A model generated the notes under the pieces. It saw nothing but the letters and a program-made list of their open reading frames with translations. It searched no databases and was not told the origin of the DNA. From Enchytraeus crypticus (taxonomy: Eukaryota > Annelida > Clitellata > Enchytraeida > Enchytraeidae), in NCBI GenBank assembly GCA_905160935.1, contig CAJHZI010000570.1:246781-310780 (forward strand): DNA of 64,000 bases, given 5' to 3'. Shown piece after piece: positions 900 through 64,000 of the stretch (the stretch's first letter is position 1; every line of letters begins with the position of its first letter). The position numbers and the translations under genes were made by a program.

Positions 900-1868
900 A
901 ATTCTTATCAGTTTCTTGCAAGATGCTCATCCGAATAAATTCTTAGTTGACTTATGGAATTTGTATGCCATTCCTGGAGCACCAACACTGTCAATTATAG
1001 GTAGCTGCTTGTCAAACGCTCGGTCATAATAAATTTAGCCTCTACGAAATCCATCTTAATTCAAAACTATATAGGCCTACATGTAGATATTACAATTTCG
1101 CCTTATTATCCATAATTCAATTTTTCTATCATTCGCACGGATTTATATATTACCCGTTCCCCATTCTCTCCCCTCTCTCGCCCAATATATATCAAAGACA
1201 CTAGTCTTTAAAATCTGAAAGAGTGAGATTTCAGCTTTCTCTATTACTCACCGTTACTCAACACTGCAACCCACCACTAGCCGAAATATATTGAATTGCT
1301 TATTATTATTTGTCATTTATTCTGAATTAAATAACTGAATTTGCAGAATTACAAATTCAACTAGGGATTGTCAATAACCTTTCTGTCTCTAGAACACAGA
1401 GAATTGTTATCAATTTTCCGCAGATTAATATTTTTATGGCCTCTCTCTAACATTGCTCTATGTAAATTAATTAAGTGTTATGAGAATAATTATAGGAAAA
1501 TAAAAGTAGTTTATATTGATAAATATTTACATAGCTTCGTATGGTATTGATGTGCTTATTTTAAGATATTTATAATTGTGAAAATTTGTTTCAATGTCAC
1601 AAATTGCATTGATATTCTTTAGATATATGTATAGGTCTAATCATTTATAGATCTATAGGCCTACATAACTCTTTTTTTATTATAACTGTGGATGGTTAGT
1701 GCATATGCGAGTGTAGCCTACGTCTCTAAGCCTATGGGCTCTAAATATTTTAACGTGCTTAGTCGCCTCTTACAACACGTGCAGATTATGATTTATTTAT
1801 TATGCAGTGTCTCGGACACGTAGGCCTACTTAAAGCTTGATAAATATGGGTTCTTGTTTAATGTGCAG
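900..1868. other. No feature recognised
   Basis: AT-rich DNA; several AGGCCTA words. Nothing else. Confidence 0.45.
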
Positions 1869-14400: not shown

Positions 14401-17400
14401 TTGAGATACATGATTATTATATCTCCTATATCATGTTTGAGATACATTGATTATGCATATCATTTTCGCTGATGCACATAAATGATATGTTGATTAAGTA
14501 GTTTCTGAGGCTGTTAATCTATTCAGTTAAATGGGGCTTCTAGTCTTTCATTTTAAATGTATAACTTAGTACCTTCAAATGTCAGGTTTCTATAAATATG
14601 CCATGGATTTTGTAGATATGGAATGAAATAATCTTTATTGCGTTTCATACCAGTATATACATCGAAATATATTCTTTGAACTTTGTTATAGATCGCTGGA
14701 AATGTAGGAATAGTAAATAAATAGCATAACTTTAAACAATAATTTGAATATATAAAACTAAAAGAATATATAAAACTAAAAGAATATATAAAACTAATAT
14801 ATAAAACTAAAAACTATTTTGATATATTATTCAGACAAAACGATGCTTATCAAATCGACCCAGCTGGTGGATGAGATAGAAACGAGTTCTAGTGAGGGAG
14901 AGAATGAAGATTGTTGTAGCATCCACACTGATGATGATGATAATACCGTCGATTCTCAGGCTAACTCTGGTAGGCTGCAGCGTAACACATCCGTGGATAA
15001 AGTAGTGTCAAGCTTGTCAGTTGCTGATATTAATGCTGGAAACAAAGCCAGAAAATCTTTTTCTGATGCAGAAAGTGAATTCAGAAAAGTCTTTGGTGAT
15101 ACCGGAAATTCTAAGAGAAGATCTTGTATTGATGCTGGAAAAGCTGCCAGGAGATCACGTCTAAACGCTGGCAGTGATTGTGTTACAGATGTCAGAGAAA
15201 GGAATGTTGGCAAGTTTTTTACTGCCTCAGAAGACAGTGTTGCCGAGCATTCCTCTCTTGAGTCTAATATTTTGCCCAAATATACTGCAGATATGGAAAA
15301 TTTTGTGAGAAGTTCATCTATTGTTGAATTAAATTCGAGAAAATATTTCACTGACACTGCAAAGGATTTCCAGGATACTGTTGCATTAGGAAATTGCTGC
15401 AGAGAAGCTGTTGTGAATGAGAAGAAATATAAGAATTTGAGTCTTTCTGCAGACCTGCCACAACAGACAAGTGATTTAAAAGTAGGGGAGGTTGTCAATG
15501 ATGGGCAAAGAAGGTCTCTTCCATTCTCACAATTGCATCATTATGATAAGGTAAAATCAATTGTTATTTTATACAATATGCCGTTTGTTTTCTATACATA
15601 AACATATCATTTAGTAATAATATATCTTCATATTCATTTATTACAATGAACCGCAGAGATCTTAAATAGTGTGATAAGCAATTGTACTATTAACTAATCA
15701 GTATTGAATATTTCAATGTAGTTACGTTGTTAAGTGAGACTAAATTTCAAACATGTTTAAGTATGAATGATGCACTAGTAAGGCCAATTAAACAAAACTG
15801 TAGGAGAATATAAAACCAAGTTCCACAGTTAATTTTAAATTCTATCTCCAGGTCTGACTGCAAAACCGAAAGTTTGAGTAACTCATGATTGCTCGAAGTC
15901 GAGTAACTTTCATTTGCCTACCATTCTCCATGTTACCACTAGCAAACATGTCATGATGATATTTTTATAGTGATTGTTTGCGTATATTGTTTTAGCAATT
16001 GGTGCAATTTTAAATTACTTTTGTACTCTTCAGTATTTTATCATAATTTTATATTGATAATCACTTTCTCTTAGTGCACTGCTTACTGGCGGGCTCATGG
16101 TTATAGCGTCTCCACTTATCGCTATCTTCCATTTTCCTCTCCTTTTCCCCCCATAAGGGTGGATCTTTAAATCATCTTCAACATTAATTCCCTTTAATAT
16201 ACCTTTTTTTTTAAAAAATTATTTTTTTAAAATTATTCCGTATAGTTACACACATGACATACCGCATGTGTTTACAATGTTTCCATTCTAAAGTTTCTGT
16301 TTTTTGTAGTTTTCGTTATTTCCTCCATTCCTTTCCATGGTTATTAGTATCGTTGCCTTTTGTTGGCGCTCCAATAGCAGCCGGCGCGGATTTAAGAATA
16401 ACCTCCAACACCCTGGGGATTGTTTACTTTCAAAGCTGTCTACACGCGGTCTTCCGGTCTTCTGAAGTGGTCGCCCACAATTTACTAACTGCGTGCAGCG
16501 TGGCTTTACTTCGTTCAACTGACGCGCAGCTGAACTGAGTGCGCTAAATCCCCCCTGTCGTTAAATCCCCCCTTTATTCATGGGGGGATTCTGCTTATGA
16601 CGAGGTGGGCCCCCTATGCCTTCCTCAGCTCGACTAACATTTATTAGGCAGGGGTGTCATTCCCTGAAAAAACAATCTTGTTTACCCAAATATACTTTTT
16701 AATTTATTGATAGTATATCGAAAATATTGTTCAAATACTTAAACTATAATTTCAAACTTCATTTGGACGGTTTGAGACATTTCAACTTGCAGAATCCACC
16801 AGTTCTAAATAGCTACAAATTTATGGCATTTTCCTGCTTGCAATGCAACTGTGCTAATGAGCCATCATTGCCATACACATGATAAAAAAATGCATAAATA
16901 TTTATTTTGACTTCTACGAACGTTTGAAAATAATCAGTTTTATAGCTATTGGCTGCTCAGTTGAAGATATATAATATATAAATTAAAATCGTTGAGATTA
17001 TGGAAATTATTGATAAAACAAAATGTATCCATTTTTAAAACATTTCTTTCAATATGTTCTGTGTAAACTGTTCCTCATAAAATACCAAGAACAGGCTTCA
17101 AAAGGCTTCACTCGTACAGTCGTTTTAAATCCTGTTGAAGACATTAGAATTTGTTTTAGTGCAGGATTCAAATCATGAACAGTTGACAAGAGTCTGAGAT
17201 CATAGCACTATGTTGTGTGCATCCATTCACTGGTGGAATAATTCTTGTAACTGTAAAACACTGAAATAGCATACAGTAAAACACTGAAATTATGTACTGT
17301 AAATATTGAAATAATATTCTGTAAACAATAATATGCTGTAAATATTGTATTATACTGTAAACAGTGAAATACTATACAGTAAACATTGAAATAGTATGCT

Positions 17401-20400: not shown

Positions 20401-23400
20401 ACTGGGTGAAGAGGGTTCTAATCCATAAGGTGACAGTGACACCAGAGAAAGTAGTCAAGGCTGGGTGTGAAAATGAGGAGGGAGTGGTGAAAGAGTCTGG
20501 TAAGAAGAAGAAAAGTTCATTTGTAAGGTAGGTACATTTAAAGTCTTAAAAGGGCTGAGGTCCCATTCACTTAGTTTTCTGTCTCGAAAGCCTCTCTGAT
20601 GGTTTTGGTACTGGAATCTGGAATTTAACATTGCACGTACGGATCTGCTGTCAGACATCTAATCCATTGTGCTATCTGATCAGTTTAGTAACCACTCATT
20701 GGTTATTTCTTATTGTACTGTAACATGCAAAATATTATATAGGGTGTCGCATAAGTTCGTATACCGTTTTCAAATTGCATTAACTCTGGAACTACTTAAC
20801 CGTTTTAAACCAAATTTGGACAGTATGTAGACACGATAAATAAAATATATGGGTACAATTTAATTTGTAATCGTACAAGTAATTAAGTAGAAACTGAAAT
20901 TTTTCTGAATGACGTCACATTTTCGCAAAAACTAATATTTTATAGTATTTCCTTTTTGCTTAATGACAGCGAGTATTCTATCCGGCATAGATTTGATTAA
21001 TGTCTGAAGTATTTCCACTTTCACTGATCTCCAAGCTTGTTGTAGACGACGTTTCAGCTGCACAACATTCGTGGGCTCTGGATCGCGGTAGACACTAAAC
21101 GACAGAATACTCCACAGGTTCTCGATAGGAGAAAGGTCTGGAGAGTTCGGTGGCCAGTCCTTCGGCTTAATGTACGATGGAATGTTGTCTTCCAACCATC
21201 TTGTTGTTTTGGCTGATGTATGACATCTTGCACCATCCTGTTGAAAGATGCCAAGGTCATTGTCATTGAACAGCTTTACTCGAGTAACGTTGCCGCCGGT
21301 TACGATTCTTTGAAACGCTGGCTTGACGAGTTTATCCAGTATGTTTACAATGTAATAATCCGAGTTAAGTCGTGTACCGTTCGGAATGAAGTGCAGACTC
21401 GTTAATCCGTGTGCAGTCATTCCGCCCCAAACCATAACCGAGGGACTGAACTTCATTTGAGCAGCGGGAGGAACATTACTCTCCTGTGATCCCCACACAG
21501 TGTCGTTCTTGGGATTGGGTATGTAAAACACTTTGAAGGGTGACTCGTCAGTAAACAGAACATTTGACCAATCCTGAACAGTCCAATTACGATGATCACG
21601 CGCAAACTTAATACGTTTCACCTTGTGAGCATCAGTCAACAGTGGAATTTTTTTTGCGACGCCAGTTCTTCCACTTCAGGTCATTAACCATGTATCTGCG
21701 AATTGTGTCCTTAGAAGCACGTTCATTACGAATTTTCAGTTGATTTGAAATACGGCGCAAACTCTGTCCACGTCTGTATTTTGCGGATTGGATGAGACGC
21801 TTGGCTGTATTAGACAGTATCTTCGGACGTCCACTACGTTTCATATCCACTAGTTTTTCGTCAAATTTGCTTCGACCTACCCACTTCGTAACCCAACACT
21901 TACTCCGATTTAACTTTTGTGCAATACATTTATGCGAATATCCTTCTTTAGCCAATACTACTGCCTGTGCACGTAATTGTATTATTTTAATTTTATCCAT
22001 ATTATAAATTATACGCGGCCTCATCGAACAATAACATTGACACGTTGATTAGCCTTGACTGCGGTCCTGGACGACAACATCAGGTAATTTCCAGGCACGC
22101 GCTGCATGCAGCCACAGCGTGTCTCTAGCTGCGCCAGTCAGAAAATGGGTCACATTGCGCGACAGCGCCGTGTGACGTCATTTCCAGGTCTAATGAAAAT
22201 AAACTTGCACCAACATCTAATTCACATCTATTATACACGAATACGAAGTTTTATGAACATGCGACCTTTACTAGCCGAATTACTGCAATTTGAAAACGGT
22301 ATACGAACTTATGCGACACCCTATATTAACCGGATAGAAGATATTCTGTGAACAACATGTTATGGATTTTTTTATTCCTTTTGTTATTATTCTCTTTTAG
22401 TTTTTTAATGCCCTGGGCTGAATAGGACCCTGGATTAAAAATAAGATAAAAGAAGGACTTTATATAATTTAAAGACAGATGATAAAGAAATATTTAAAAT
22501 AATTCGTCTACGCTCTGGGAGGCCACATTCGCCAAAGTGCCACGAACACAGACAGCCTTAAAGCGCTGGAGTGCAATAGACGGGTGCTGCCACCGAAAGG
22601 CTTTTTCTCGTTGGTCGCCTGTAATAGCGCTGGTTCTCCTGCCTAATTCGTTTATAATTTAATTTGTCATATTATGATTTATGCATTGATTAATCATAGC
22701 TTTTAATTATTTAAACCGATACAAGATTTTTAATTATCTAGAAGCAATGATCAGTTGTAGTTATGTATTTCTGCAGAAATGGACTGGCGGAGCGTCTGAA
22801 CAAATTAGTGGCTAGAGAAAAGTCTGCTGTTGCTTGCTGGATGCACAAAATTCAATCATCTGCCGAAATTGGTAGGCATTTGCTTTTAGGAAATACCTTA
22901 AGCACTATTATGACTATAGTATAGTGATGTTAGAAGTGGCACTCTTTCTCTCTCTCTCTCTTTCTCTCTCCCTCTCTCTCTCTTTCTCTCAATGTACTGC
23001 CTAGTGACAGTCCTAGTCCTGGGGTAAACAACTGGGCCACATATTTATATCGTCTTCCCTTTTTGGGTCAGTTTTTAGTAGTAGCAAACTGCGCAGTCTA
23101 ATATATAAGTTCAAATTAGGGTGTTTAATTAATTTGTGTTTTACAATTTTTTTAAATATACGGTCAATTAACAGTATTTCAGAAGTGCTCAATCATTAAA
23201 TTTGAAATAATGTGATACACAATTGGTCGAAGCAATGCAGTGTATATTATGTTAAAGTTCAAAGCCATGTTGAATGTCAGTTTCCTGTTCGATAGCCTCT
23301 CAGTTATTGGAAAAAAATTGGATGTAAGTCTTGCATCTAATCTGCTAAAATTACTATATTACTTTAAACCACTTTATTAATTATTACTTATCCTCTGTCG

Positions 23401-25751: not shown

Positions 25752-28700
25752 GAGCGACAAAAGAAAATAGATAGAGAGAGGGAGATAGTGAGACGGAGCC
25801 ACTTTCTCTAAACATTATCGTGATTATCGATACAGGCAGACACTGAGACTCACACAGGATCAGTCAGGTGACGCTCTGGTCCTACTCTGCTCCAGTCTTT
25901 CCAAACTCATTCCACTCAAGCTGGAAAACGACTCTGATCAGTTGAACGACAGTGTGGACTGTCTGCCCTCTACACCTCAGATAGAGACCACCAGGGACTG
26001 CCTATCTCCTGTTCCTGTGGTAGACCCAGTGACTGCTCAAGTTGCCCGCCAGGTGGCTACAAATATGAATTGTTCGTCGTCTCACTCTTCTACCTCAGTT
26101 GTGCCTCGAGTGGATGTTCCTCTGCAGATAAACTACAAGGGTGACGAACAGTTGGTCGAAATAGCTCACGATTCAGCTGAAACTTTAGCTCGTCTACAAG
26201 TTGACTCTAAAGCTGGCGTTCTTTCACGCAGATCTCCATTTTATTCAGCTGTGGACTTCGCTCAGCAACAGTTGCCTGTTATTGGAGATCTCCAGCCATT
26301 GGATGTTTCATCTACAGCCGTCTTTCATCAATCTCGGTCTGTTGAACGATTGATGCTGGCTCGGTGGAGCTGTGACTGTCTTAATGGTATCGTACTGTGC
26401 CTTTAAAACTTTTCTGAATGAAAATGGTGCTATACATCTACATTGATATTTAGTTCAAAATTTAGTTTATTTCGTAACTACCGAAGTTACTAATTCCCTC
26501 TTCGAACAGGTTTAATTTAAATATAATTTATTTCCATTTAAAGCCAAGTTTACAATCTGTTTCCTGCTCTAATAGCATATCAATGATGGGAAGAGCATTG
26601 GATTTGAAACCTGCACCAACTGATCCGCTGTCGAAATACTTGCCAATGAACTAACTGCTCAGCCGGTTGAGTCCTTATAGTTTTTAAAAGTATTAAATGC
26701 AATGAGGCTGAACTCCAGCTTATTAATATGGACACGAGTAAAAATTATTGTTATTTTAAATAGCCATTTAAAACTAAAATCCTTATACTTACTATAGGAT
26801 ATTAGTATAATATTAATGACTGTTTGAATGACTCATTGTTGAGCTAGAAAGCTGACGTTAATCCCGTACATTTATGAATTATTGTAGTTGTTTAAGACAG
26901 AACTTCGAAATTCCGGTATTCAGTGACGATGATGCTTACATTATACTTATGCTATTCCTGATATTAATATTATATTGCAATTTTTTCAATTTTTCAGTAT
27001 TTTTTAGTTTGCGCTCATATAATCTAAGAGTTAAATTACGAGTAATTAACATGGCACTGGTGTAATCCAATCTTAATTTAGTGAAATGTATTCTATGTCA
27101 ACAGTTGATAGTCTAGCAAGTATTTCACGCTGCACATCCATTCTGTCGTCACACGCATGCAGAATTAATGTAAGTGTCTGTACCTAATGCTAATGTCTGT
27201 ACTCTATTGTAGAGATGGGAATTTTATGAATTTCCAGAGTTCGGGTTCAGTTCGGTTCACTGAAAATGAAAGTTCGGTTCGGTTCAGGTTCGGTTAGCAG
27301 TTGACAATTGGAGAGTTCGGTTCGGTTCGTTGAAAATGAAAGTTCGGTTCGGGTTCGGTTCTAACAAGGGTTCGGGTTCGGTTCGGGTTCGGCTTGCTTT
27401 CCGGCTCGCAAGAGTTCGATTCAAGTTTAAAATGATTTGGTTTGGATAATGTTGCAATTGTTCAACTTTACTTACAATAATTATGGTTATGACAAACATG
27501 TTAAAATGGTTTATGGTAAATATGCTTAAAAATTAAGTAAGTCATAATGGCTGCGACACTTTTTCACCTGGGTAAAAATATGACAATGAAAAACAGAGAG
27601 AAGTGGTATTTATTCCTGTACATTTCTTAAAATATTGTTATTTGACCAACAAATGTTCATAATATTGATAATTAGCTTTATTATTGTATCTAAAATATTT
27701 TCCTTGATTATAACGAGCAAATAGAATGCTTCATCAATTTGTACATTTTTATTGTCACTATAGGCCTATATATTAGATACGATTATAATTAAGTGTCTTG
27801 GCTAGAATTTGATCTAATATTTCAGAGACAAAGTGCAATTTAGTAACATAAAAATGTCAAATGAAGATGATTTAGTAAACACGTGTACTTCCATAGGAAA
27901 ATGATCATAATATACACCATTTGCTATCAACTGACCAGTAATAAGCTTCATAATTTACGTTAGGGTTTAAAATTTTAAACTCTCAGATCAATTCTGAAGT
28001 TACGAAAATAGTTATGAAATTATTGCATTGCTATGGTGCAAAATTATTTACTCCAGATAGCCTTAACGCATATAGAATATCATATATAATTATTTGTAAA
28101 TCTGGCTGCAAAAATATTATGGTAGCACACTAAAAATAGAAAAAATTCGTAATTTGAATTTGACAAGAACAAATCCACCAAGATTGAGTCAAGCGTTTTC
28201 AGATTTTTATGGGATACTCTCATCACTTTTGTCGCTTTGATGTTAATCTTCATTCCATATTTCAATGTCGTATCATTCAGACTATCCATTATCTTCTGTA
28301 GGCCCGTCTCGCTTCCCGCTACCATTCCTTTGTACCACTACCATTTTAAAATTTGTGTCAGAACCAGCCTTACCTGAATATATGCTGTTAGATGCTGTAA
28401 GACATGTAAATGCAAAAATTAATATAGATGTGTATTGTTCTTACTGTCTTTATATAATGTCAGGCTGGCGTAGAAGAAAGGAACTCCTAGAGTTTGGTTC
28501 AGTTCGGTTTGGACGAAGTCCGGGTTCGGTTCGGTTTCGGCTAGAGTCTGGGTTCGGTTCGGTTCGGCCAGAGTGTGGGCTCGGGTTCGGTTCGATTCGG
28601 TCAAAATTTTAGATTTTAGGGTTCGGTTCGGGTTCGGTTCGATTCCCATCTCTACTCTAATGCTCTGGAAGTGCATCTGCCAGACTCATGCAGAGTTAAT

Positions 28701-31416
28701 GTATGTGTTTGCAGTATACTCTAATTTTCTGTCAGTGCATCTGTCCCACTCATGCAGAGTTAATATGTTTGTTATGTACTCTAATGCTCTACCAGAGCAT
28801 ATTCTGTTGATCTATTGAGTTTAGTGTCTCCATCTGTATCATAAGCCGACCTCCAGGAATGATATGAGAAAGTGGTTGACTGTCCAAGTACTAGGCCTGT
28901 TCTTTGCATGTCTCTTGTATATTATAAGCTAAGTTCATGGCACTAGGCTCACTCGGCAGTTATAGCTAAATTACGAACTAAAACTAAATTATAAACTGAA
29001 TAGAACTTGAATAAAAATTGATGTTATCTTTTAGTTTGAGTTTGAGGCTTTTTGGAATCTATGAATGTGTGTAAGTACCCTTAATTTTTATATATTAGAT
29101 AATTTTAATTCAGTATGCATATAGTCTATACACTTACTTAGTAAGCTTAGACTCTATTTTATATCATTCGACATTTTCAGTAATTGAATCATTATAAAAA
29201 GACATTTAAGAATCACTGTCAAAATATGTTGATCTAGTAAACTTTAATTTTGCTTCAATGTGAATTAATGTTTGAATTTGCTTAATAGTATCTCTGTCAA
29301 ATTTTATTCTGATGTATTGTATTATTTTTGTTTTTAAATAGCATGGGGACGGTCTAGTACGATCTCCATTGACGCGTTTCCACGACAGCAGTTCTTGTTT
29401 GAGTTCTTATGATCGTCTGCTGACGTTCGAATCAGTGCAGCCGCTATCCCAGTCTAACGTGATTAGCCTGACGTCTATACTGGAGAGCATAGAGATGAGA
29501 GGAGGGTCCGTGGCAGAAAATATTAGCTTCACTGCTGTGTTGCAGCGTGTCTTCTATAAAAATATGGTTAATTCAACGTCATCTGATATCACTGAGTTAG
29601 TCAGATGCGTATATTTGTATTTACGTGTTGCTCTAAATATGTGTATGTTTGCTCCATGAAATTTGAGAACTCTTCTAAATTAAATACTTAAAATAAATAC
29701 ATACGTTTTGCAGATGTGGTAACTTTTTCTTTGAACTAAGGCTGCACTTTAATTTTCTTGAAGAGTTTTTTAAATTGAATGTTGCACTTAATGATGGTCA
29801 TTCTCAATTGAGTTCGTGTTTTGAACATTTAAGGGGTAGATATGGATTTACTGAAGCAATAGAGGGAGAAAGGTAAATGATTAAAACTGTAGATTGAAAA
29901 ATTTATATCGGTGAGTACTTATATGAATGTTAGATTACTGAAGTATCAGCTTGTATAGAAGGCCATCGTTACCGACCTGTTTCCATGGCATTTTTAGATT
30001 TTAGATTTTTTAGTTTTCTTTACTTGAACAAATTCATATACATGTATATTGGCCTAAGGTTTAAAAGCTGAAGCTAAAGCTAAGGTTAACGTCAGTTTCC
30101 TCACTCGAAAGCGATGTCAGTGACGGGCGAGCCCTGGATTTGAACCCGCACATACTGATCCGCGGTCGAGTATCTTACCGACTTAGCCTCTGGCTCCAGC
30201 CAAAGGTTAAAGATTTAGGTAATCAAAGGTTTAGGTAAGATTACGTGTAGGGTTAGGGCTAGGAGATGGTTAAGGCTTGTGAAGATTGTTTTTTTTCCAA
30301 AAGCAACGATTTAATTTTTTTTTTGAAAACCAATTAGAAAATAGGGAATTGACTGATGATATGGTACGGGACAGAGAAGAGGAAGAAGGTCTATTCGCAT
30401 CCCGACACTGGTTTTACTGGGATTAAAGGGAAGATAATGATGATGATGAGTCTACTACACCTGTAGGAGGTAAATTAGACTAACGATGTAGTAAGCAGAG
30501 TTTGAAGTAATGAGGCAGAGGTTAAGCTAGAGAGAGATAGACCACAATTGACGTGGGATGTGGTGATTAAGAGAAATAGGAAAAATAGTGGATTGACTGA
30601 TGATATGTTGTGGGACAGAGAGGATTGGAGAAGATCTAATTATATCCCGATCCTAGTTAAGCTGAGATTCAAGGGAAGATGATGACGGGTCTACTACAAG
30701 TGTATACATGTATATCCTGGTTTATTGCAGCACCCATTCACCTACCAGTGTATCACTGCTACTACAAGACTCTCATGGATTCCTCTGTGAAGTTCTTCTA
30801 CCGATCAACATGGATTTGAACCCTGACTGGAGGGCTAAACTTGACTCTCTCAAGCAGCTCGGCACAACCTGGTCTCTGCATAACCTCTCTATCAAGTGTC
30901 GAGTGACCAGGCAACGGCGAGTACTCGTATTTGTTCCTCATGTTTTACAATAATAATAGTTGTACAATAATAATAATTATAACATCAATTAGAGTGCGAC
31001 AGTCATCAATGACAAAATCGGGCACTATTGAGACAAACTCAAGCCGGCGAGCAAAAAGAAGGTCCAAAACATTGCAAATTCCAAAATCCAGAAAATCAGT
31101 CCAATGTGACATGCTGTACAACTGAATAACAATTTCATTTATCTTTTAGTGAATTTATTAGATGTTGATTATTTTAATTCATAGTATAATTTATGATAAT
31201 TACTATTCAATTTTTATAATTTATAGAATATACTGAAATATATTATGATGGAACAGTTGAGTTTCTTAAACTTGAAACACTGTGGAAAATTATAGTTATA
31301 TTTTTAAAATCTACAGAGTTTGACGCGCTCTACCTCAGCAACAGTTTCGTGGCTTTTTATTTTTTATTTCTTTACACATATTGTTTTAAAGGTGTTTTAA
31401 TTTTAAGTTTTCTATT

Positions 31417-36200: not shown

Positions 36201-39200
36201 CTTGACCATTTTTAAAAGATTGTTAGGCTTATTAGTCGATCTGTTTCTACTTATTTAGACATTTAATGCGCAGGAGATGGATGAGAGCAGACGTATGTTT
36301 GTATACAGTTCTGACTCAACTCGTGTGTCTGGAGGGATTTCTGTTGCGATTCATATCAGTCGACGAACTGTGTGTAACTGGGCGACTGACCTACTTTTAA
36401 CCAATAGAATCTTCGCTTTCTATAATATTCTCAGCCAATCAGGTTAGCCTTATAGCTGCACTGCAGTTGATTCTTGCTATGAGCTCTGATGGATACTGTC
36501 TATTTGTATAATAATATAATTTTCTTAAACATTATAATAATTTAATCGGACGATAGGATGGGCCGGGATTTAGTGCGCCTAGTTAAGCTCCGCGATAGTG
36601 AGCGTAGCTAAGCTACGTTGGGCTCAGTTAGTATATAGATGAGCGATCACTTTGGAAGACAGAGGATTGACTGCTTTGAACGAAGAAAAATATATCCCGG
36701 CTTTTGGAAGGTCATTCTTAAATCTGAGCCTTCTGCCATCAGTGCGCTGTCCAAGGTAACCAACGAGAGGTAGGATGAAATAACGAAACACTATAAAACA
36801 GCAACTAAGCAAGGGCTCTATAGCACCAAAGCGATTGTCATGTATGAAATCATACGAACAAAAAATTGATCAATGGCGTCTCAGACAATGCTAGTTTTAC
36901 AGGTACATCTCACCAATGCAGGTTTTTAAAATTATATGCACAATTCTGTCACGGTCTAATGCTCAGGTATTATGGCGTAGTCAGATAACGTCAGGTTATG
37001 TTCACCGCCTGTCGCTACCAAGAAGTGTCAGTGTTTTTTTAAATTGAGTCTGTTGTAATGGAGAGATTCTAGGACCATACTAATACAAACGAGAGAGAGA
37101 TTGCGTTGGCAAAATAATGCAATAATGCATCAGAAATAATACAATAATATAATAATACAATGATACAATAATACAATAATACAATGATACAATAATACAA
37201 TGATACAATAATACAAAATACAATAATGCAATGATGCAATAATACCATGATACAATAATACAATGATACAATAATACATAATACAATAATGCAATGATGC
37301 AGTAATACAATGATGCAGTTGGATGTATTATTGTATTATGGAGAGGGTATATTAGAGAGCGCTGCTCAGTAGTTAGAGAGAGTGTGTGTGTTAGAGTTAA
37401 CCGAGCCGCAGACTAATGGGAAAAGACAATACGGACTGTGAGCTGCTGTCGTCACCCAGGTAGACTATTAATATCCGTCGTAGTTAACATTTTATTGTTG
37501 TCGTCTCAGAACATTTTAGTAGCAATATTTCATAGTAAAGCGAACCACTTTAAGCGCAGTGGGTGCGCAGTAATAGAATTATTTTTGTCTTGTTATCGTC
37601 TCTATAGTAATCGGTTTGTAACATTAGGCCGGTCTCTGACTTCATCTAGAATAATAAAGTAAAAGTCTAAGGTTAGCGTTAGTCTCCTCACTTGGGGACG
37701 AAGTCGGTAATGGGCGAGCCCAGGATTTGAACCCCACACCTACTGATCCGCGGTCGAGTATTTTACCGGCTTCGCCACTGGCTCCAGCCATATATCTACA
37801 TACGCGAGTCCCTATTGTACGAGCGAAACATACACTATAGTAGCGACTAATATATAGGGTGTCCAGATAGATCGTGAACGATTTTGAATGACTGCCATTT
37901 TTAATCCACTAGTAACAAATTTATAAAAATTGTCATTTAGTATTTAATAATGTCTCCTTTATTCTTCAGTACAGCGTCAAGTCGATCATGCATCGAGCCA
38001 ATTAGATTTGTCAGAGTTTTCAGAGGTATCGATTTCCACGCCTTTCGAATCCGGCGTTTCAAGCTGTTCAATGTCTGCGGTTCAGGATCGGCATAAACCG
38101 TTGCCGCCATAATACTCCAAACATTTTCTATCGGTGACAAATCCGGAGAATTAGGTGGCCAGTCCTCTGGTGAGATATATCCATTAATGTTTGTGTTCAA
38201 CCACTCGACTGACGCTCTTGATGTGTGTGCACGTGCACCGTCTTGTTGAAACAATCCTTCGCCGTTATTACGAAACAGCTTTGTAGCTGTTAAATTCGTA
38301 CATACAACTGTTCGCTGGAATGCTGGTTTGACCTCTTTCTCCAGTATCTCATTGATGTAATAAGTCGAATTAACTGAAGTTTTATTTGGGATGATATGAA
38401 GTTTTGTTAATCCGCGAGCTGTAATACCACCCCACACCAGAACTGACGGGCTGAACTTCACCTGTGGCGCGCACGGAACAGAAGTTTCTTGTGATCCCCA
38501 TACTACATCGTTCTTATTGTTAGGTACGTAGTAAAGTTTGAAAGGTGATTCATCAGTGAACATGACACGCGACCAGTCAATATCTTTAAACTTCTTCGCA
38601 AAGTTGACTCGGCGGACTTTATAAGCACTACTTAACTTTGGGACCTTTTGTCGTTTAAAGCATTTCCATTTCAGCGTCGTTCGCATATACTGTCTTATTG
38701 TCTCTTTGCATCCAGCAAAGCGTTTGTCTTTCAATCGACGTGCTAACTTTCGCAGACTCTGTCCACGCACATATTTAGACTGCCTAATCAGTTTTTGAGC
38801 GGCAGCAGTCAGCACAGACTTTCGACCGCCTTGATAACGACTCTGCAGCGTTTCGTTTGGATTCTGCTTGTAGCGGTTGGCCCACTTGCTAATCCACGCT
38901 TTACTACGACCTAGTTTTTTTGCTATAACGCCATAACTATACTTTTCTTCCAATAGTGTAATAGCTTGTGCTCTAATTTGCGCTTCGTTTAATGTTGCCA
39001 TTGCCTAATCAGTGATACGCCGTTTATTTACTGCACTGTTGCGGCAGTTTTCTGTTTACGCACATTTTGATGACGTCACGGCAAATGACGTCAACACTTT
39101 GAAACGTAAGTTACAAACCTACAGTATTTTCCCTGTTATTTACAATTGAACAGCCTATCTGCCAGTATCAAACTTTCCACATTGTATTGTGCATAACATA

Positions 39201-44900: not shown

Positions 44901-47900
44901 ATGTTATAGATGACTTTAAGCTCCACTCGTATGTGGGCATGAAGAGGAAAGCGGAAGATAGAGACGTATGGATGCGTTATATACCATGGTAATCTCTCTT
45001 TCTTGCTGCACAAGAAAGAGAGATTCTATGAATTATAGTGAAGACGTCTTTTCACTTCATTTGTCGTTCGATTCATTCAAACATTTACTCTGTGATAATA
45101 GATATTGAAGTAAGCTGTGCAGCAGGTATTAATTATAACTGTTTTGAATCTTTATTCAGTGAGTACTTTTTACTTTTTAAATCGTTATCGACTGGTGGCC
45201 GTGCTGATAGCATGCTTGCCTGAAATGCAAGAGGCTACGACTCTCAGTACACTTGCGATATGAATACAGACGTTGAATGCTTCTATATTGTAAAAGTGTA
45301 AGCGTGCAGTGGATGCTTTTGTGTAAAAATAAAGGCTACTGAAGTAAACATTTCTGAAATGTATTATCACGTGCATTCGCAATGCTAATAATATGTGATT
45401 TTTTGCAGAATGGAGATGTTAGAGAGATAATAGGGAAATCTGTGGGGTGCTTAACCTGCCTGATACGAGAGATACCAGCAAGAACAATGTACGCGAATAA
45501 TTCTACATATTGTGAGAGGAACAGAGTCTGTGAGGATAATTCCACAGGGTGTCCTAGGAACAGAGTCTGTCAGGCTAATTCTATAGGGTGTTCAACTTAT
45601 TCATCTGAGGTCGTAACAGGTGAAAGAGGCGTTGAACGCAAGATCTTGGAAACACATCGCAAGAACACTCATTTTGAAGATAAGTCAGTTACTGGAGGTG
45701 TAAAAGTTTGCAAGGAAAGACAGAAAGTCCGCAAAAATAGCAGTGACGGTGTGCTATTGATTTATGCCGATGAGATTTCTATTACTTAATCAATCAATCC
45801 ATCAATAAGTGTAATTACAATTTATGGTCCTGGATAATTTCTATAGAACTGAAAAATGAACAAAGTTTAGAACTCAACCGTTCTGAAATTTGACACAATG
45901 ATAATTAATTGATAATGATAATTTCGAATTAAAAGAAAATTATTTTTATTTCATGCTCTGTTATTAACTATGTCTCCTAAGACTACATCTGGTATTTGAT
46001 GGTTAAAAAGGTAATCATAGGTGAAACTTATATACCTATATCAGTGTTACACTAGGTGAAACGTATATCATGTCAGGTGAACATTGGCAACAAAGTTGCT
46101 ATTGAGTTGCAATTTACTGGAATTGCTATTGACTTGATTAGCTGCAACTTGTGTATCTAAACATGACTTCTACATGTAAATATTTCGTTAAACATTCATT
46201 TTCCTATTATTTAATTTTATAAACTAGATTAAAATAGAAGACTTAGATGATTTACTTAAGCCAGATACGGACTACAAACTCCAGGGTACAGCAGGCCAGA
46301 TTAACTCTCTTTTCCTGACTTAAGAAACGATATTAAAGTTTTTGTCCCAGCAGAAATCGTGTTGACAGGCTTTACATTCTTGTATCAGGACAGGATGCTA
46401 AGAAATTGTTATCAGTCCCAAAGCGTCTCGATGAAACCGCTCTTACCATGACTCGGGCTGTTGTTGATACTGTGGATGAATGGGTGTTGCATGACCAAAT
46501 AAGAGATGTTTTGATACAACGGCCTCTTTTAACTGGGTGCGAGAAGGAGTTTTCGTATTACTGGAAACTGAATTCGGGCGTCCACTATTGAACTTTGAAA
46601 AGATGTTCAGCCTCAAAGACTTTTCAAAATCTCCAAACACGGAACTGTTCAGTGAATTTCACGATTATTTGCCTTCTCTCTCTCTTAGTGCACTGCCTAC
46701 TGGCAGGTCCATGGTACATAACGCCTCCACTCTTCTCTGTATTCCGCCTTCCTCTTCATTTCCACATATGAGTGGGTCTTTAAATCATCTAACATACCTA
46801 ATCTCGGCCTGCCCCTGCCTCTTTTTCCTTCCATTCTACCTTCTATGACCTCTTTTAATAGACCTTCCACCCTTAGAATGTGTCCTATACATCTCTTCTT
46901 CCTGTTTCTTAATACATTTATCAACTGTCTATCTGTGCCAACTCTCTCCAGGACTTCCTCATTTGTAACCTTTTGAGTCCAGCTAATCCTCTCCATTCTT
47001 CTCCAAATCCACATTTCCAATGCCTCCAGTTTCCTAATATATTCATACCTTAAGGTCCATGTTTCGCATCCATACAATGACGTGGTTCAAACCAAAGTTT
47101 TCACTATCTTTATCTTTGTGTCTTTCTTTAGACTTTTTGTTAATAGTTCTTTTCTACTACCAAAGGCCGCTTTTGCTTGTGCAATCCTACAGCATATTTC
47201 TGTCTCACATTTCCCATCATCGGTTATAATATGACCCAAATATTTGAAACTCCTTACCTGTTCCAATTTCGTACCATTTATTGTGATATTAACTTCACCT
47301 GTATTATTGGACATTCTCATAATCTTGGACTTTTTTATATTAATCTTCATGCCATATCTTAGGGCGTATCATTCAGCCTATCCATTATCTTCTGCAATCC
47401 AATCTCGCTGCCCGCTACCATTCCTTGGTCATCTGCAAATCGTACATCTTGTAACAAATTCCCTCCTACTTTTATTCCTTCTTCCAAGTCTTCCTTGGCT
47501 TCCTTCATCATTGCCTCAGCGTAAATGTTAACAGCAGCGGCGAAATGCTACAACCTTGTCTTACTCCACGTCCTATTTCACCTTCTTCTGAGTATTCTTG
47601 TTGGAATTTGATTACTGCTCTTTGATTCGTGTACAAGTTCAAAATTAGTCTTCTATCTTTCCAGTCAATTCCTATTCTTTTTAAGATATTCATCGTCGTT
47701 ATCCAATCAATCCTGTCAAAGGCCTTCTCGAAGTCTACAAAGCATACGAAAACGTCATTTCCATATTCTAGGCTTCTTTCGCAAAGAAGCGGCATTACTC
47801 CTATTGCTTCTCTTGTGCCGCATCCTTTCCTTTACTATCTTTAATAAGATCTTCGATGCATATATGCCTTAAATTAATTAAATTGCCTTCCTCCCTGTCA

Positions 47901-49145: not shown

Positions 49146-49489
49146 TTATTTACTTCTATTGATACGAGTTTATGTGGGAGGCCTTCATGATGTTTTTGCC
49201 GTAAGCATATGATGCTATGATTGCCTTATTCAAATGTCTTTGTTAACTCTCCATGAAACTTTATAATATTAGAATCATTAGTGACTATTCAAGTTCTTAG
49301 TTTTGTTTGTTGCTATTCTAGTCAAGCTGCGATATAAAAATGCAATAAATTTTCAGTTCATATAGTTTCTGGAGAGTTTTCGAATTGTCTCTGTTGTGAG
49401 TAGAAGTTAATTTCGTAAGCCACAGGCTGTGCGTGTCAGTACGTGAGTAAACTGTTCTCAACGGCTGCAACTTTAGGTTAGATTAAGAC

Positions 49490-49912
49490 GACAAAAGATT
49501 ATAAGATTTCTAATCCTCTCTCGAGACTAAATTAAAAGAGAATGTGATCTCTAAATCGTCTCTTGATATGGATTAAGAGAGAACGGGATCTCTAAATCCT
49601 CTCTTGATATAAATTAAAAGAGAATGTGATCTCTAAATCCTCTCTTGATATGGATTAAGAGAAAACGAGATCTCTAAATCCTCTCTTGATATCAATTAAA
49701 AGAGAATGTAATCTCTAAATCCTCTCTTGATATGGATTAAGAGAGAACGAGATCTCTAAATCCTCTCTTGATATAAATTAAAAGAGAATGTAATCTCTAA
49801 ATCCTCTCTTGATATGGATTAAGAGAGAACGAGATCTCTAAATCGTCTCTTGATATAAATTAAAAGAGAATGTGATCTCTAAATCCTCTCTTGATATGGA
49901 TTAAGAGAGAAC
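49490..49912 (-). repeat. 41-bp minisatellite made from the 3' border of the minus-strand exon
   Basis: About ten units. On the minus strand a unit reads AAGAGAGGATTTAGAGATCTCGTTCTCTC then TTAATCCATATC; the exon ends CTCAAGAGAGGATTCAGAGATCTC followed by GTTCTCTCTTAATCC. Units alternate two variants (TGTGATC / CGAGATC). Confidence 0.92.
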
Positions 49913-50079
49913 GAGATCTCTGAATCCTCTCTTGAGATAGTCTCTAGTGACTGAAGTGTTGTGGCGGTACTTGGCGTCCAGTGCCTGACGTATCGTCCTC
50001 TCATCTGAAGCACAGGCCGCCTTCCTCACCAACTCCTCCAGCGACTGCAGACCCGACAGCTCCAGGTTCAAATCCGTAC
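49901..50079 (-). CDS. Unidentified minus-strand gene, exon B
   Basis: Acceptor TTGCGCTAG, then two bases that complete Gly with exon A: GTDLNLELSGLQSLEELV, ACASDERTIRQALDAKYR, DYLKRGFRDL. Helical, clearly coding (GC-rich codons in an AT-rich setting). It ends either by splicing at CTC|GTTCTC (49912) or, as drawn, four codons on at a TAA (49901-49903). Both borders are amplified as minisatellites. The family is not recognised; no function is claimed. Confidence 0.75.
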
Positions 50080-50245
50080 CTAGCGCAACAAGCATCGAAA
50101 TAATGGTTAAACTACACACCTAGCGCAACAAGCATCAAAATAATGGTTAAAATCCATACCTAGCGCAAGAAATATCAAAATAATGGTTCAAATCCGCACA
50201 TGACGCTAAAAGCATTAAAATAATGGTTAAAATCCTCACATAATC
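50080..50245 (-). repeat. 40-bp minisatellite made from the 5' border of the minus-strand exon
   Basis: Four to five units. On the minus strand: TTGTTGCGCTAG (acceptor) then GTATGGATTTTAACC, against the true border TTGCGCTAG|GTACGGATTTGAACC, then ATTATTTTGATGC. Confidence 0.85.
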
Positions 50246-50515
50246 AATCAATCAATAAAAATTTAACGTCCAGTTCTTCGCCATAAGGCAATGTCATAAC
50301 GCAAAAACACTTCAATCTTTATTTCACACCCGTACCTTGAGTAATAAAATAAAATTACATAATAGTATTCAATTAAACCTGTATCCAGAGTAACAATCAC
50401 TTAAAAATATTTCTTCAAATCCGTGCTATAAACAGCAAAAGTCTGAATAATAATACAAATCAGTTTTTACATGTAGAGAAATCAGTACGATAAAATGATA
50501 ATTTGATTTATAATT

Positions 50516-50615
50516 GGTCTGGATGAATTGATCTGTAGTGATGTGGGCTGTGGGGACGTCCCTGACATCATTATTGTATGTGGAAACGGACGTGAAACCT
50601 TTATTAAATATATAT
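50516..50615 (+). mobile_element. SINE-like repeat S2
   Basis: TGGATGAATTGATCTGTAGTG, GGGGACGTCCCTGACATCA, GGAAACGGACGTGAAACC. Same as the right edge of the window (63921-64000). Confidence 0.7.
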
Positions 50616-50634
50616 ATTATATATATGCATATAT

Positions 50635-50708
<74 letters not shown>

Positions 50709-50762
50709 ATGTATATATATACATATTTTTGGACTGATTATCTCTTTACTTTGGACTGATTA

Positions 50763-50882
50763 TCTGGATTTTGGAATTTGCACCGTTTTTGAACCTTCTT
50801 TTGCTCGCCGGCTTGATTTTGTCTCAATAGTGCTCGATGTTGTCATTGATGACTGTAGCACTCTAATTGTTGTTATTATTAT
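50763..50882. repeat. Dispersed repeat H, reverse copy
   Basis: TTTGCTCGCCGGCTTGATTTTGTCTCAATAGTGC is the complement of 31030-31060. Confidence 0.7.
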
Positions 50883-51169
50883 TTTATAATTTACGTGCAC
50901 TTGTGTTTTGGGCTTAATAAAGATCTACATGACACATTTTGAGAAGGGGCTTATGATACCCCTCTCTAAACCGCTGCAGCAAACACCGGTACATATTACC
51001 TTCCCAGGGCCTTAAGGATATCTATTCGTTATTAACTGATCATAAAGTTGAATGTACTCCACTTTCTCACGAAGCAAACGTTACAACCGTTTCGGCATAC
51101 TCTCACCAATGCGTTAATTGGTCTACTTTATAACCTTGAACCTGCTGACACTAGTTGCACGTTATACAT

Positions 51170-51170
51170 T

Positions 51171-51212
<42 letters not shown>

Positions 51213-51225
51213 AGAGAGAGAGAGG
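51170..51225. repeat. (GA)n microsatellite
   Basis: AG run with one interruption. Confidence 0.95.
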
Positions 51226-51229
51226 ATAG

Positions 51230-53110
51230 ACGTAGTGAGTTTTGTGCATATATATTAGAGACTAAAGAGTTATCTGATACGCTATAGTAACTGGTAATTT
51301 AACCAGTACTGGTAGACGACACAAGGCTGGGTCAGGGTTTGGCATTTCTTTGATAAATTGACTTGCAGTCAACTCCTTTGTTGGCTAATATTTACAATGC
51401 ACCAGGGATAAGAAAACCCCGGTCATTCTTTATCATCATTTCACACCGCATCGCAAGTTAGATTTCTTGAGAGATTTTTCCTAGAAGTGACATTGAGAAT
51501 ATAGAGAAGTGGAGGCAGTGACCGTAGAAAGATTGATAGAAAAGGGCTGTAGCGAATTCTTTAATTATATTTTCAGTGGGCCTACAAGAGAGTGGGTGTG
51601 GCATCTTGGAGAGAAGCAGAAACACTAATATCAAAAGACACAGTAAGAAAAACAGTAAGAGAAACAGTGATATCAATCGATGAGAAAAATAGATGGAGAA
51701 AGAGAGACAGAGAGTGAGAGGAGAGGACGTAAAGTGGTGACAAGATCATGGAGATGAATGCGACGTAGAGTTAGGTAGTGGTGAACTGAATATCAAAAGG
51801 CTATGAGAGGCTATTGGTTATATGAATAAAAGTATTGAGTATGTGAGGATGCAAGAAATGGATACGGATGAAAGATTTAGAGGACAAATTTAGAGAAAAT
51901 TATATCGAGAAGAGAAAGGAAGAGATGACAGGCTATCGCAGAATGATAAAAATTGACTCAATGATTGGTTCATCTTCAAAATTGTCTTCCAGTTCGTGAA
52001 AACTTTAAACTTCTTTATAATGAATTACATATATTTAAAAGGTTTAGATTTAACAGGTTTAAGCTATATCCCTAACTTAACAACTGATTTCCATGATTAT
52101 AGGAAGCCCCGTAAAATATGGCAAAGGAAGCCCGTATTCTAGGCTTTTACGTTTTATACATCCAGCCAATCAACGGGGTTTCAATGCGAATTTAAATTTA
52201 GGATCGGTCGCGTGAAATAGAAACTCTAACGAGCCTTTCAGCGACAACACAAGGGTGCGAGAGTGAGGTAGAGGTGATACCGTGACTTAAATGAGTGAGG
52301 TAGAGCCTATATGTGATACCTTGACTTAAATGAGTGAGGTAGAACCGTAGAACCTACAGGTGATACCGTGACCTAAATTAGTGAGGTAGAGGTGATGCAG
52401 TGATTTAATGAGTGAGATGGAGCCTGGATGTTCATGATACCGTGACATTTTTAAAATACATCTTGAATGACTTTGAATTTTTTCTGGATGAGAAAGACAA
52501 CTTTTACAACTTTTCCTAACTTTTCCTAAATGGCTTGTAAAACTTTCAAGATCTCCTGATCTCTTATTTCACTGAATACGTAATGAATTGGAATAAACGT
52601 TATTGAACTACCAACTATATTAATGCTAAAATAAAAAAATCTTCTTAAAAACTATCATATGAATTAATAGAAAACCTTTAAGCATAATGTTAAAATGTTA
52701 AAAGCCTATGCCTTGGTTTTCATAGACACACCCATTAAATATCAATCTGTGAAAATGACAGTAGAACAAGTTTCAGATCAATACAGTAAAACACTTTTTC
52801 CATAACGCCACATAATTTGAAAACATTTTTTAGGTGCTTAGTGTCAGATCTAATAAATCCACCGGCTATTCATTGGATTTTCAATGCTTTTGTACCAATT
52901 TTTATTTTTCTGCATTTTCTCTTCCCATCTTACAGCGTTTGTTCGGGCCACTTAACTGGAAATATATAACCAAACATAATTACAAACAAATATATATAAC
53001 CAAACGTAATTACACTGTGTTTGTCTTGTTTTAAAATGCGACTGAGCAGGTACTGTGGAAAGCAAAGAGAAACGTAGCACAGATGACATTATTCTTATAA
53101 TCTTGTGCTA
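51230..53110. other. Intron of the minus-strand gene, middle part
   Basis: Mostly featureless AT-rich DNA. A degenerate array of about 40 bp (GAGTGAGGTAGAGGTGATACCGTGACTTAAAT) with four copies lies at 52255-52445. Confidence 0.6.
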
Positions 53111-53114
53111 TTGG

Positions 53115-53780
53115 ATACCATCTCTTTCTCTTAGTGCACTGCCTACTGGCAGGTCCATGGTACATAACGCCTCCACTCTTCTCTGTCTTCCGCCTTCCTC
53201 TACATTTCCACATATGAGTGGGTCTTTAAATCATCTAACATACCTAATCTCGGCCTGCCCCTGCCTCTTTTTCCTTCCATTCTACCTTCTATGACCTCTT
53301 TTAATAGACCTTCCCCCTTAGAATGTGTCCTATCCATCTCTTCATCCTATTTCATAGTACATTTATCAACTGTCTATCTGTGCCAACTCTCTCCAGGACT
53401 TCCTCATTTGTAACCTTTTGAGTCCAGCTAATCCTCTCCACTCTTCTCCAAACCACATTTTCAATGCCTCCAGTTTCCTAATATCTTTCTTCCTTAAGGT
53501 CCATGTTTCACATCCATGCAATAGCGTGGTCCAAACCAAAGTTTTCACTATCTCTATCTTTGTGTCTTTCTTTAGACTTTTTGTTAATAGTTCTTTTCTA
53601 CTACCAAAGGCCGCTTTTGCTTGTGCAATCCTACTGCATATTTCTGTCTCACATTTCCCATCACCGGTTATAGTATGACCCGAATATTTGAAACTCCTAA
53701 CCTGTTCCAATTTCGTACCATTTATTGTGATATTAACTTCACCTTTATTATTGGACACTCTTATAACCATAAGATGTGAT
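53115..53780 (-). mobile_element. LINE family D, 3' part
   Basis: From LGHTITDDG-equivalent (KYSGHTITGDGKCE) through LLHGCETWTLRKKD to the tail CTTAGTGCACTGCC. Truncated at 53780; frameshifted near 53450. Confidence 0.88.
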
Positions 53781-54110
53781 TAATTGAATTCAGTGGACCT
53801 TTGTGAATATATTAACTTGTTAATCGATGGTGTTTTCTTAATGGAGCGTGAAAGCAGAATGTAAATAGAAATATACTGTAGTTGGTCCTACCACTTGGCC
53901 GAAAGTTTTAGAGAGATCATATTGACTGTTTATGAATCATTATTGTCTCATTTTACGATAATTACCGGAATGATTTTGATAGATGTCTTGCTATGTCTGC
54001 GGCGGTGCAGACACTACGAACGCATGCATATTTAATATAAGCCAGTCACGCCTCCATAGTACAAGCACCGAAGTGAGTAGGATGTGGGATTTGTCGCATA
54101 AAACTAGACG

Positions 54111-54890
54111 CAGGGACGGATCCAGAAATTTTTTAAGGGGGGGGGCCGAAATTTTTTTTTGATAGTACACATTTTTTGCTTACGAAGTACGCCTTATTAT
54201 GCCTTCTTCGCCGAAGTACGCCTAGTTACGCCTTATTATGCCTTCTTCGGGACATGTGACGCAACCAGAAAAAATGCTATGGGGGGGCTCAACATTTTTC
54301 ACTACTGCGCTAGACTCTTAGATTGAGTGTATGTGTCCCCGTATTTTACTCCCCCACTCAAAGACGTACTAAAGTGATAGAAAACCTAAAATGCCTAAAT
54401 TCCTACATTTGTTTTGGAAAAAAGTAGGCCTACATTAATTTTTTCACCTCTGAAGAAACTCAGCTGATCTGTACGAATTGTAAAAGTGACCTAATTTTGG
54501 CTGTAGGGGGCTTATACCGTCCCAGTCAAGGCTGTTTGCACCACTGCTCTGGAACAGAATTCACATTTTTTACTTACACTCTCTTTCCTCTTATAGGCCT
54601 ACAGTGGCTAAAGTGAAAATTGAGAGCTAGTGAAACGATCAACATTTTTCGGGTCCTCTTCCATTATACAGGGCTCCTAGGATAACAAATACGGGCCCCA
54701 AATTCCATATTTGAACTAGTTGAATTGAGTTCCCTCTCGTACCCGCAACCACCCCCCCCCCCCCTCTAATCACTGCCCTTACAAACATATTGACACAGAA
54801 ATAGCCATAGAAACGATTAAAATATAGTTTAAATTTTTTTATCGCCGGGCCTAAGGGGGGTGCCCGGGCCCCCCCCTGGATCCGCTACTG
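54111..54890. mobile_element. Non-autonomous hAT element with perfect 8-bp target duplication
   Basis: Ends CAGGGACGGATCCAG and CTGGATCCGCTACTG; flanking ACTAGACG on both sides is identical. Sister of 4083-4937 with poly-G/poly-C runs near each end. No transposase. Confidence 0.93.
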
Positions 54891-55717
54891 ACTAGACGTA
54901 TAATTAGCGAGGCACTGTACAATATCATGATCGCTTACAGCATACTGTATGTCGCATAACTACATGACGATACTCTTTTATAATTAAAAATGCAATACGA
55001 GGACAACGGGAAACAACCTCAGAAGCGTATATGCTCCGAGCTAAGGCCCAAGGGTTGTATCAACATTTGGTAAAATAAGACCTTGCGATGGTAATAACAT
55101 GTTGACTATCACTTTGTTCTATTTCAGCAATCAGACTTTGCGTTTTAAAAATTTATCTTGGGCCTGACACTTTGCAGACTATAGAATAGAGTGGGAGTAA
55201 GGAACAGGTTTCATTCATTATAAACCATTCAGTACAACTATGGGATGCAAATCTTGCAACCACAACTCCCTGTCATCCTAATACTCTCTTATTTCTAGGG
55301 TTATTGTTCTTCAAATAATACCAAAGTCGTAGTGACTACTAGCCTGTACTTTGTACTAGCATGTACAAAGCGACTACAAAATCGTAGTCGCTTTATAGAT
55401 GCGGTTCCTCAAATAACTTTAAACGACTGTGAATATAAATAGCCTTAAACAAGTTTGCTTTCATTGCAAAAAAACCTGCAATGAGGATTCCGTTCATATA
55501 TAATATTTCAAATTGATTGTATTCAGTTGGTATGGGTGTTAGTGAATGAATCTTGCAGCCAGACGGCTAACTTATCAGTCCGCCTGCTAATAATATCAAG
55601 GTGACGGTTCTAAACCCAATCGCATCATCTCTGACAATGCACTTGCGGCCAAAATGTCAAACTTAGTTTTATAGCATCTTTTATAATTCGTTGCTGGTAT
55701 ATTGAATTGGAAAAGAG

Positions 55718-55935
55718 TTGGATATGACACATTCTAAGGTGGCAGGTCTGTTAATAGAGATCATAGAAGGTAGAATGGAAGGAAATAGAGGCAGAGGCAG
55801 GCCGAGATTAGGAATGTTAGATGATTTAAAGACCCATTCATATGTGGAAATGAAAAGGAAAGTGGAAGACAGAGAAGAGTGGAGGCGTTATATACCATGG
55901 ACCTGCCAGTAGGCTGTACACTAAGAGATACTGAA
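55718..55935 (+). mobile_element. LINE family D 3' end, + oriented
   Basis: EIIEGRMEGNRGRGRPRLG, MLDDLKTHSYVEMKRK, WRRYIPWTCQ and stop, then CAGTAGGCTGTACACTAAGAGA. Ends 22 bp from the donor of exon A on the other strand. Confidence 0.9.
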
Positions 55936-55957
55936 TGATTGCTTAATCCTTCCTTAC

Positions 55958-56171
55958 CAGAATTGAAGTTGGTGAACCGCGCGGCAGAGCCCTCAGTTAG
56001 AACTATAAGGTTGGCGTCCTCGATGAAGGCGACGCTCTCCAGCCTCTGGAAGACCTTAACCTCAAAGAGTCTGGGACTGAACTTGAGTGACCTCTGAGCG
56101 GTGGAGTCTGTAAGTGTGGACTCAGCGGAGGACTTGTAGCGGTTGTAGCACGCCTGGAATATACTCCGCAT
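55958..56171 (-). CDS. Unidentified minus-strand gene, exon A
   Basis: ATG at 56171 opens MRSIFQACYNRYKSSAES, later FSPRLFEVKVFQRLESVAF and ANLIVLTEGSAARFTNFNS. Donor G|GTAAGG is strong; phase 1 fits exon B. A TGTGCTAG acceptor-like site lies just 3 bp before the ATG, so this may be an internal exon. Not recognised; the beta-strand-like VAFIEDANLIVLTEGS could be a propeller blade, which is only a guess. Confidence 0.75.
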
Positions 56172-56179
56172 TATCTAGC

Positions 56180-63920: not shown

Positions 63921-64000
63921 GGTCTGGGTGAATTGATCTGTAGTGATGTGAGCTGTTGGGGACGTCCCTGACATCATCCCTGGATGAAGAAACGGACGTT
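63921..64000 (+). mobile_element. SINE-like repeat S2, cut by the window end
   Basis: TGAATTGATCTGTAGTGATG..GGGGACGTCCCTGACATC..GAAGAAACGGACGTT. Confidence 0.7.

Follow-up and report, generated by a model that had tools for sequence, protein, structure and literature searches.

Tandem repeats lying over exon-intron borders are known from lancelets, in which those in the globin genes BflGb6 and BflGb9 have been called 'mirage' minisatellites (PMC3087553). The accessible part of that paper cites earlier reports of mirages in Adh3 and other lancelet loci, describes 5' or 3' boundaries as affected, with many of the units repeating the AG/GT signals, and gives unit lengths of 10-72 bp for Adh3 and 150-160 bp for the globins. 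It also presents mirages as a proposed route to new introns and cites Rogers' idea that introns are gained by tandem duplication of AG/GT-bearing segments (PMC3087553). Repeats at splice sites are likewise described for lancelet PGBD5, in a paper whose accessible part cites Adh and troponin C (PMC3902484).

Here, we describe an exon, exon B, with a tandem array over each end, in a window of 64,000 nucleotides (the whole stretch of DNA that was analyzed). As far as the accessible text of the lancelet papers allows a comparison, the 40-bp array at the 5' end of exon B resembles lancelet mirages in having a unit that lies over an exon/intron border with AG/GT repeated and a unit length within the Adh3 range. 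The locus differs from the lancelet globin mirages in that the second array, with a 41-bp unit, lies on the stop codon and in that the host is probably not a lancelet. The PGBD5 repeats lie in another gene and probably in another phylum; relative to them, the units at exon B are short, and a stop codon is part of the 3' array. For lancelet mirages, splicing and length instability were examined, whereas the exon B arrays are known from the sequence of a single assembly. We consider it very probable that exon B is a last coding exon whose acceptor and stop-codon ends were independently duplicated in tandem from gene sequence. The anatomy, reading frame, homology and polarity are established from the sequence; transcription, splice choice and the mechanism of birth are inferred.

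Exon B and its host gene

The gene structure was predicted using tblastn of the homologue P0002 and the inferred splice sites, as follows.

49901..50079, minus strand: exon B, predicted last coding exon with stop codon TAA (49901-49903); tblastn match of P0002, 49% identity, residues 427-481
55958..56174, minus strand: exon A, predicted penultimate coding exon, 217 nt; tblastn match of P0002, 63% identity, residues 355-429
50080..55957, minus strand: intron A/B, as it would follow from exons A and B

Exon A, whose end is overrun by the P0002 match by a few bases, ends in phase 1 before CTG|GTAAGG, a donor scoring at the 99.6th percentile, and this phase is compatible with the acceptor ahead of 50079. 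The frame of exon B runs from GTDLNL to KRGFRDLVLS and then reaches TAA at 49901-49903. Joined, exons A and B encode 131 residues. Searching with these among 233 candidates, limited to proteins of ~240-770 residues having short words in common with the query, we identified two proteins with E ≤ 1 (E of 6-7e-38), isoforms X1 and X2 of LOC135496080 from the ribbon worm Lineus longissimus (Nemertea), so that the homology is supported by a single gene, with two isoforms, in a single species. Aligned pairwise, isoform X1 is identical at 73 of 127 residues (57%), and no gap falls across the A/B junction, in support of the first-pass annotation, which had placed an exon with its acceptor at 49901-50079. 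The homologue ends in ..YLKQGLRESMYT and the frame here in ..YLKRGFRDLVLS, both four residues beyond the aligned part. Because the C-terminus of the homologue coincides with the stop of the frame, exon B is likely the last coding exon, with a stop codon at its 3' edge. The first-pass annotation had taken both borders of exon B for splice borders; this does not apply to the 3' one, since 49901 is the last base of the stop codon.

A search of the whole 524-Mb assembly with the homologue gave five matches with E ≤ 0.01, all on the minus strand and in order, of which three on contig C478 cover homologue residues 89-185, 225-285 and 284-357 and two on C477 are exons A (residues 354-429) and B (427-482); residues 1-88 and 186-224 had no match in this search. 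The host gene was thus found once in the assembly. The window end at 64000 is the end of its contig (C477:310780), and the upstream exons lie at C478:6135-14319. Because the gene spans this gap, C477 and C478 are probably neighbours. Three of the five matches (exon A and two on C478) contain one TAG each, and the one in the exon A match is the acceptor directly upstream of exon A; the two on C478 weigh against an intact gene.

The host protein is uncharacterized and has a weak possible resemblance to FAD-binding proteins: with the Pfam family FAD_binding_3, the homologue P0002 scored 15.0 bits (E = 0.015) and P0001 13.7 bits, below the cut-off of 22, and they are not assigned to the family. 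Exons A and B together gave one Pfam match below the cut-off (E 0.23) and, in the PDB, 50 weak matches to nearly exclusively antibody chains (best E 0.1), which we took as chance. Exon B alone matched no Pfam family, had one insignificant match in the PDB (E 0.64), and, as a 59-aa query, found no protein homologue; the latter search says little because such a query reaches only proteins of similar length. As for other families, the smoothelin domain had two matches in the genome, both on C359 and none at the exon B locus, and the molluscan haemocyanin family PF14830 had no match, which at the sensitivity of the search does not imply its absence.

The predicted A/B intron contains, besides an AT microsatellite, two LINE-like copies and the intron-side portion of the 40-bp array. 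The LINE-like copies belong to a set of three copies in the window (46672-47305, 53118-53749 and 55713-55935) that are 91-98% identical in the matched pieces; we call them LINE-like because the copy at 46672-47305 adjoins a reverse transcriptase match at ~47470-47760. Elsewhere in the window, a long open frame on the minus strand (37940-39001) resembles a Tc1-type transposase with DDE_3 and HTH domains, and a second transposase-like copy, in two frames, lies at 20935-22024. Possible exons of a further gene are GC-rich open stretches on the plus strand (~14819-15601, 25835-26403, 29340-29560 and 30750-30950), with no Pfam family scoring above the cut-off in the four ORFs tested.

The arrays over the acceptor and the stop codon

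Tandem Repeats Finder (TRF) and a lag comparison agree that two arrays overlap the ends of exon B, as the first-pass annotation had described. The arrays and the repeated acceptors are as follows.

50065..50239, minus strand: 40-bp minisatellite, 4.4 copies (TRF), covering the splice acceptor of exon B
50240..50270, minus strand: repeat-like tail TGGACGTTAAATTTTTATTGATTGATTGATT, adjoining the outer end of the 40-bp array
49504..49939, minus strand: 41-bp minisatellite (TRF), with an A/B dimer of 82 bp
50080..50081, minus strand: AG acceptor used in the mRNA as inferred; the exon starts at 50079, with ungapped homologue alignment across
50120..50121, minus strand: repeated acceptor that shares the 14-mer of the real one; if it were used, a stop would follow two codons past the junction codon
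50160..50161, minus strand: repeated acceptor scoring slightly higher; if it were used, a premature stop would follow

On the minus strand, the 40-bp similarity continues from CGCTAG through GTACGGATTTGAACC and then ends, so that 15 exon bases lie within the unit. This matches the earlier description of the array as a CGCTAG acceptor plus the first 15 bases of the exon. The unit thus comprises 25 intron and 15 exon bases across the acceptor, which is what defines a mirage. CGCTAG|GT is kept in three of the four full units, and the copy adjoining the exon would be the real border. The splice signal is repeated across units at full strength: using approximate position weights, the acceptor scores were 7.64 (50159), 7.07 (50119) and 7.07 (50079), and the copies therefore score at least as high as the real site. 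Six acceptors were tried (50205, 50159, 50119, 50111, 50079 and 50044); the frame stays fully open with 50079 alone, and the other five run into an early stop. Based on the frame and the homologue, the exon-proximal copy would be the acceptor used. The tail at 50240-50270 had 19 matches elsewhere in the genome, of 30-43 bases each, in a search that scored best candidates only. On C689 (locus L010), partial copies of it are spaced 42 bp apart.

For the 3' array, TRF called a period of 41 (49505-49935, 10.5 copies) and a period of 82 (49504-49939, 5.3 copies), of which the latter fits better. In the lag comparison, the 41-bp similarity sets in ~33-39 bases ahead of the ORF end, just upstream of CAAGAGAGGATTC, and continues beyond the reading frame. 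Its unit had been described as about 25 exon bases plus the sequence that follows; the exon end is indeed repeated, and the content is corrected to 30 coding bases (10 codons), TAA and 8 downstream bases. With a stop codon in the unit, a poor donor and a homologue that ends there, this array is not a mirage as defined above; it acts like one though away from splice borders. In all 10 units of the comparison, which excluded a decayed 11th one, TAA is at the same place, each time after 10 codons, and the unit peptides are KRGFRDLVLS, KRGFRDHILF, KRRFRDLVLS, KRGFRDYILF, KRGFRDLVFS, KRGFRDPVLS and KRRFRDHILF. Unit 1, which is the exon copy, shares 95-98% identity with the remaining A-type units and 73-85% with those of B type, a pattern consistent with a duplication whose products diverged before a dimer containing the exon copy was amplified.

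That exon B is instead internal, with both splice borders turned into minisatellites and a donor before GTTCTCTC, we regard as extremely unlikely. Such an exon would be in keeping with each array being built from the border it touches, and a kinase exon described below has both of its apparent splice borders repeated. However, the homologue has its C-terminus where the frame of exon B stops, and the repeated GT at 49912 (CTC|GTTCTC) has a donor score of -5.47, at the 9.9th percentile of the 3194 GTs on the minus strand; as donors, all 12 GTs between 49951 and 49452 scored no higher than the 34th percentile. Points contrary to a last coding exon are the missing AATAAA and the donor-like sites within exon B and past the array. 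Those within exon B are TTG|GTGAGG at 50029 (99th percentile), CGG|GTCTGC at 50052 (92.5th) and CAA|GTACCG at 49970 (80th), and the homologue alignment reads straight through them. Those past the 41-bp array, at 49442 (71st percentile) and 49423 (76th), are moderate. In the 1.2 kb scanned past the stop codon, AATAAA is absent, and the poly(A)-type signals are ATTAAA, at 48708 only, and weaker variants such as TATAAA at 49265.

The exon ends that lie within the arrays align to the homologue (GTDLNL with GMDINL and KRGFRD with KQGLRE). The alignment of these array-borne stretches supports that the exon came first and that the arrays derived from it, as in the first-pass annotation, which derived each array from its adjoining border. 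The reverse order, in which older arrays supplied the repeat sequence that became the exon ends, could draw on the 98% identity of the exon copy of the 41-bp unit to another array unit; this identity points to recent exchange between exon and array or to recent amplification. Yet the exon codons in both arrays match the homologue and would be older than the arrays unless the homologue has arrays too. Moreover, at the sensitivity of the search, exon B with the first 41-bp unit had no copy outside the locus, and the 40-bp unit had none elsewhere except for the repeat-like tail. We therefore hold the reverse order to be very improbable. Even less credible is an assembly artefact with wrong copy numbers or with arrays created by misassembly: the window does reach the end of its contig and parts of the gene lie on two contigs, but the units are not identical to one another, their A/B dimer is ordered, the outer edge is decayed, and unrelated loci have the same kind of structure.

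Under the preferred reading, in which both ends of a last coding exon were copied, a segment over the splice acceptor would have been duplicated in tandem to give the 40-bp array, a 'mirage' minisatellite. Independently, a segment over the stop codon would have been duplicated to give the 41-bp array by the same process at the coding end. Replication slippage followed by unequal exchange would be the likely process. The extra 40-bp copies would sit in the intron, with only the exon-proximal acceptor giving an open frame, and the extra 41-bp copies would fall past a stop codon common to all compared units. The extra copies may thus be tolerated because they lie in the intron or the 3' UTR.

Arrays at other exon borders

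The first-pass annotation held that two arrays meeting at one exon are hard to explain by chance. Minisatellites with a period of 10 or more make up 8.29% of the window, and for 0.46% of positions (0.35% without the exon B locus), a randomly placed 179-bp segment has each end no more than 10 bp from a different array. To place this in the context of the genome, we used 50 kinase loci, comprising the best 30 of 137 listed and 20 lower-ranked loci without an internal stop that were hand-picked before repeats were seen; the loci are partly dependent in that neighbouring exons overlap (L054/L064, L055/L061 and L056/L058). Arrays cover 8.95% of the flanks and 1.86% of the sequence within domain hits. 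Seven of the 100 domain-hit edges, which only in part coincide with exon ends, are spanned by arrays, as compared with 7.5% of random flank points; the spanned edges are in L028, L029, L048, L049, L060 (twice) and L064. Because hit edges partly differ from exon ends, the rate per true border is probably above 7%, and a modest enrichment of arrays at borders is possible. With independent edges at 7%, arrays at both edges are expected at ~0.25 of 50 loci, and one was observed. These figures, with ~9% of flanks covered and edges spanned about as often as random points, do not bear out the claim. Two arrays at one exon are unusual per exon and are expected somewhere in so repeat-rich a genome, roughly by chance. 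Border arrays are common in this genome, and exon B is one instance of a general pattern.

We also placed exon borders using a position weight matrix (PWM) at 49 loci, with L022 skipped for Ns. At 0.70 identity, copies were nearby at 2 of 44 acceptors and 3 of 21 donors, as compared with 1 of 44 and 0 of 21 for control positions inside the exon. This test misplaced the visibly repeated acceptors of L048 and L049, and we therefore prefer the count of hit edges over all 50 loci.

In L060, a kinase exon (hit 1201-1482, minus strand), which we take to encode a PKA-like kinase, has both apparent splice borders in arrays. On the acceptor side is a 30-bp array with eight copies of CTCAG, and on the donor side a 61-bp array with five AAGGTGAGT-like copies, including the exon's own. 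The notion of both splice borders of an exon lying in minisatellites, under which exon B was first described, fits this exon instead. Arrays over a border were also seen on the donor side in L028 and L064 and on the acceptor side in L029.

The kinase paralogues L048 and L049 have CAG|GTAATTGG-type acceptors repeated upstream, and their arrays, with related sequence in both, repeat the acceptor together with the first exon codons (VIGKGSF, presumably the glycine-rich loop). The two loci have 88% nucleotide identity and differ at 14 of 59 fourfold sites. This divergence supports that border arrays can persist or recur at one border, and the arrays may be older than the duplication of the paralogues. 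That both paralogues have related acceptor arrays despite this divergence, and that the 10 units compared at exon B keep TAA and an open 10-codon tail, would agree with arrays being under selection, e.g., for acceptor choice or for formation of the transcript 3' end. Young units would, however, retain TAA by descent alone, and the similar shares of hit edges and random flank points that arrays span require no selection. We consider it very unlikely.

Implications of the repeated exon ends

The 40-bp array fits the description of a mirage, and the animal group is probably new for mirages. In the literature searched, no report of border-spanning arrays outside lancelets was noticed, which is a weak indication as subscription papers were mostly beyond reach. 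In humans, repeats that alter gene structure have reportedly been found.

With respect to Rogers' model, as far as it is set out in the accessible part of the citing paper, AG|GT, which the model takes as its raw material, is present in three of the four full acceptor units at exon B; the difference is that the 40-bp array lies in an existing intron and no new intron is seen. Repeated acceptors beside an exon offer raw material for the proposed route to new introns, and, being equally strong, they provide a natural test of how the spliceosome chooses among near-identical sites. A genome with arrays at an appreciable share of its exon borders offers many replicates of this situation, probably outside lancelets.

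The stop-codon array is the most unusual part of the exon B locus. A far-reaching view, which we find rather doubtful, is that this is a non-chordate genome with genome-wide, long-lived mirages at about one in ten exon borders, in which the stop-codon array is a store of cassettes for the last residues. Exchange could then swap the last residues (LVLS, HILF, YILF, PVLS and LVFS) and leave the gene unbroken. More generally, a change in copy number at the coding end may be buffered by the stop codon in each unit.
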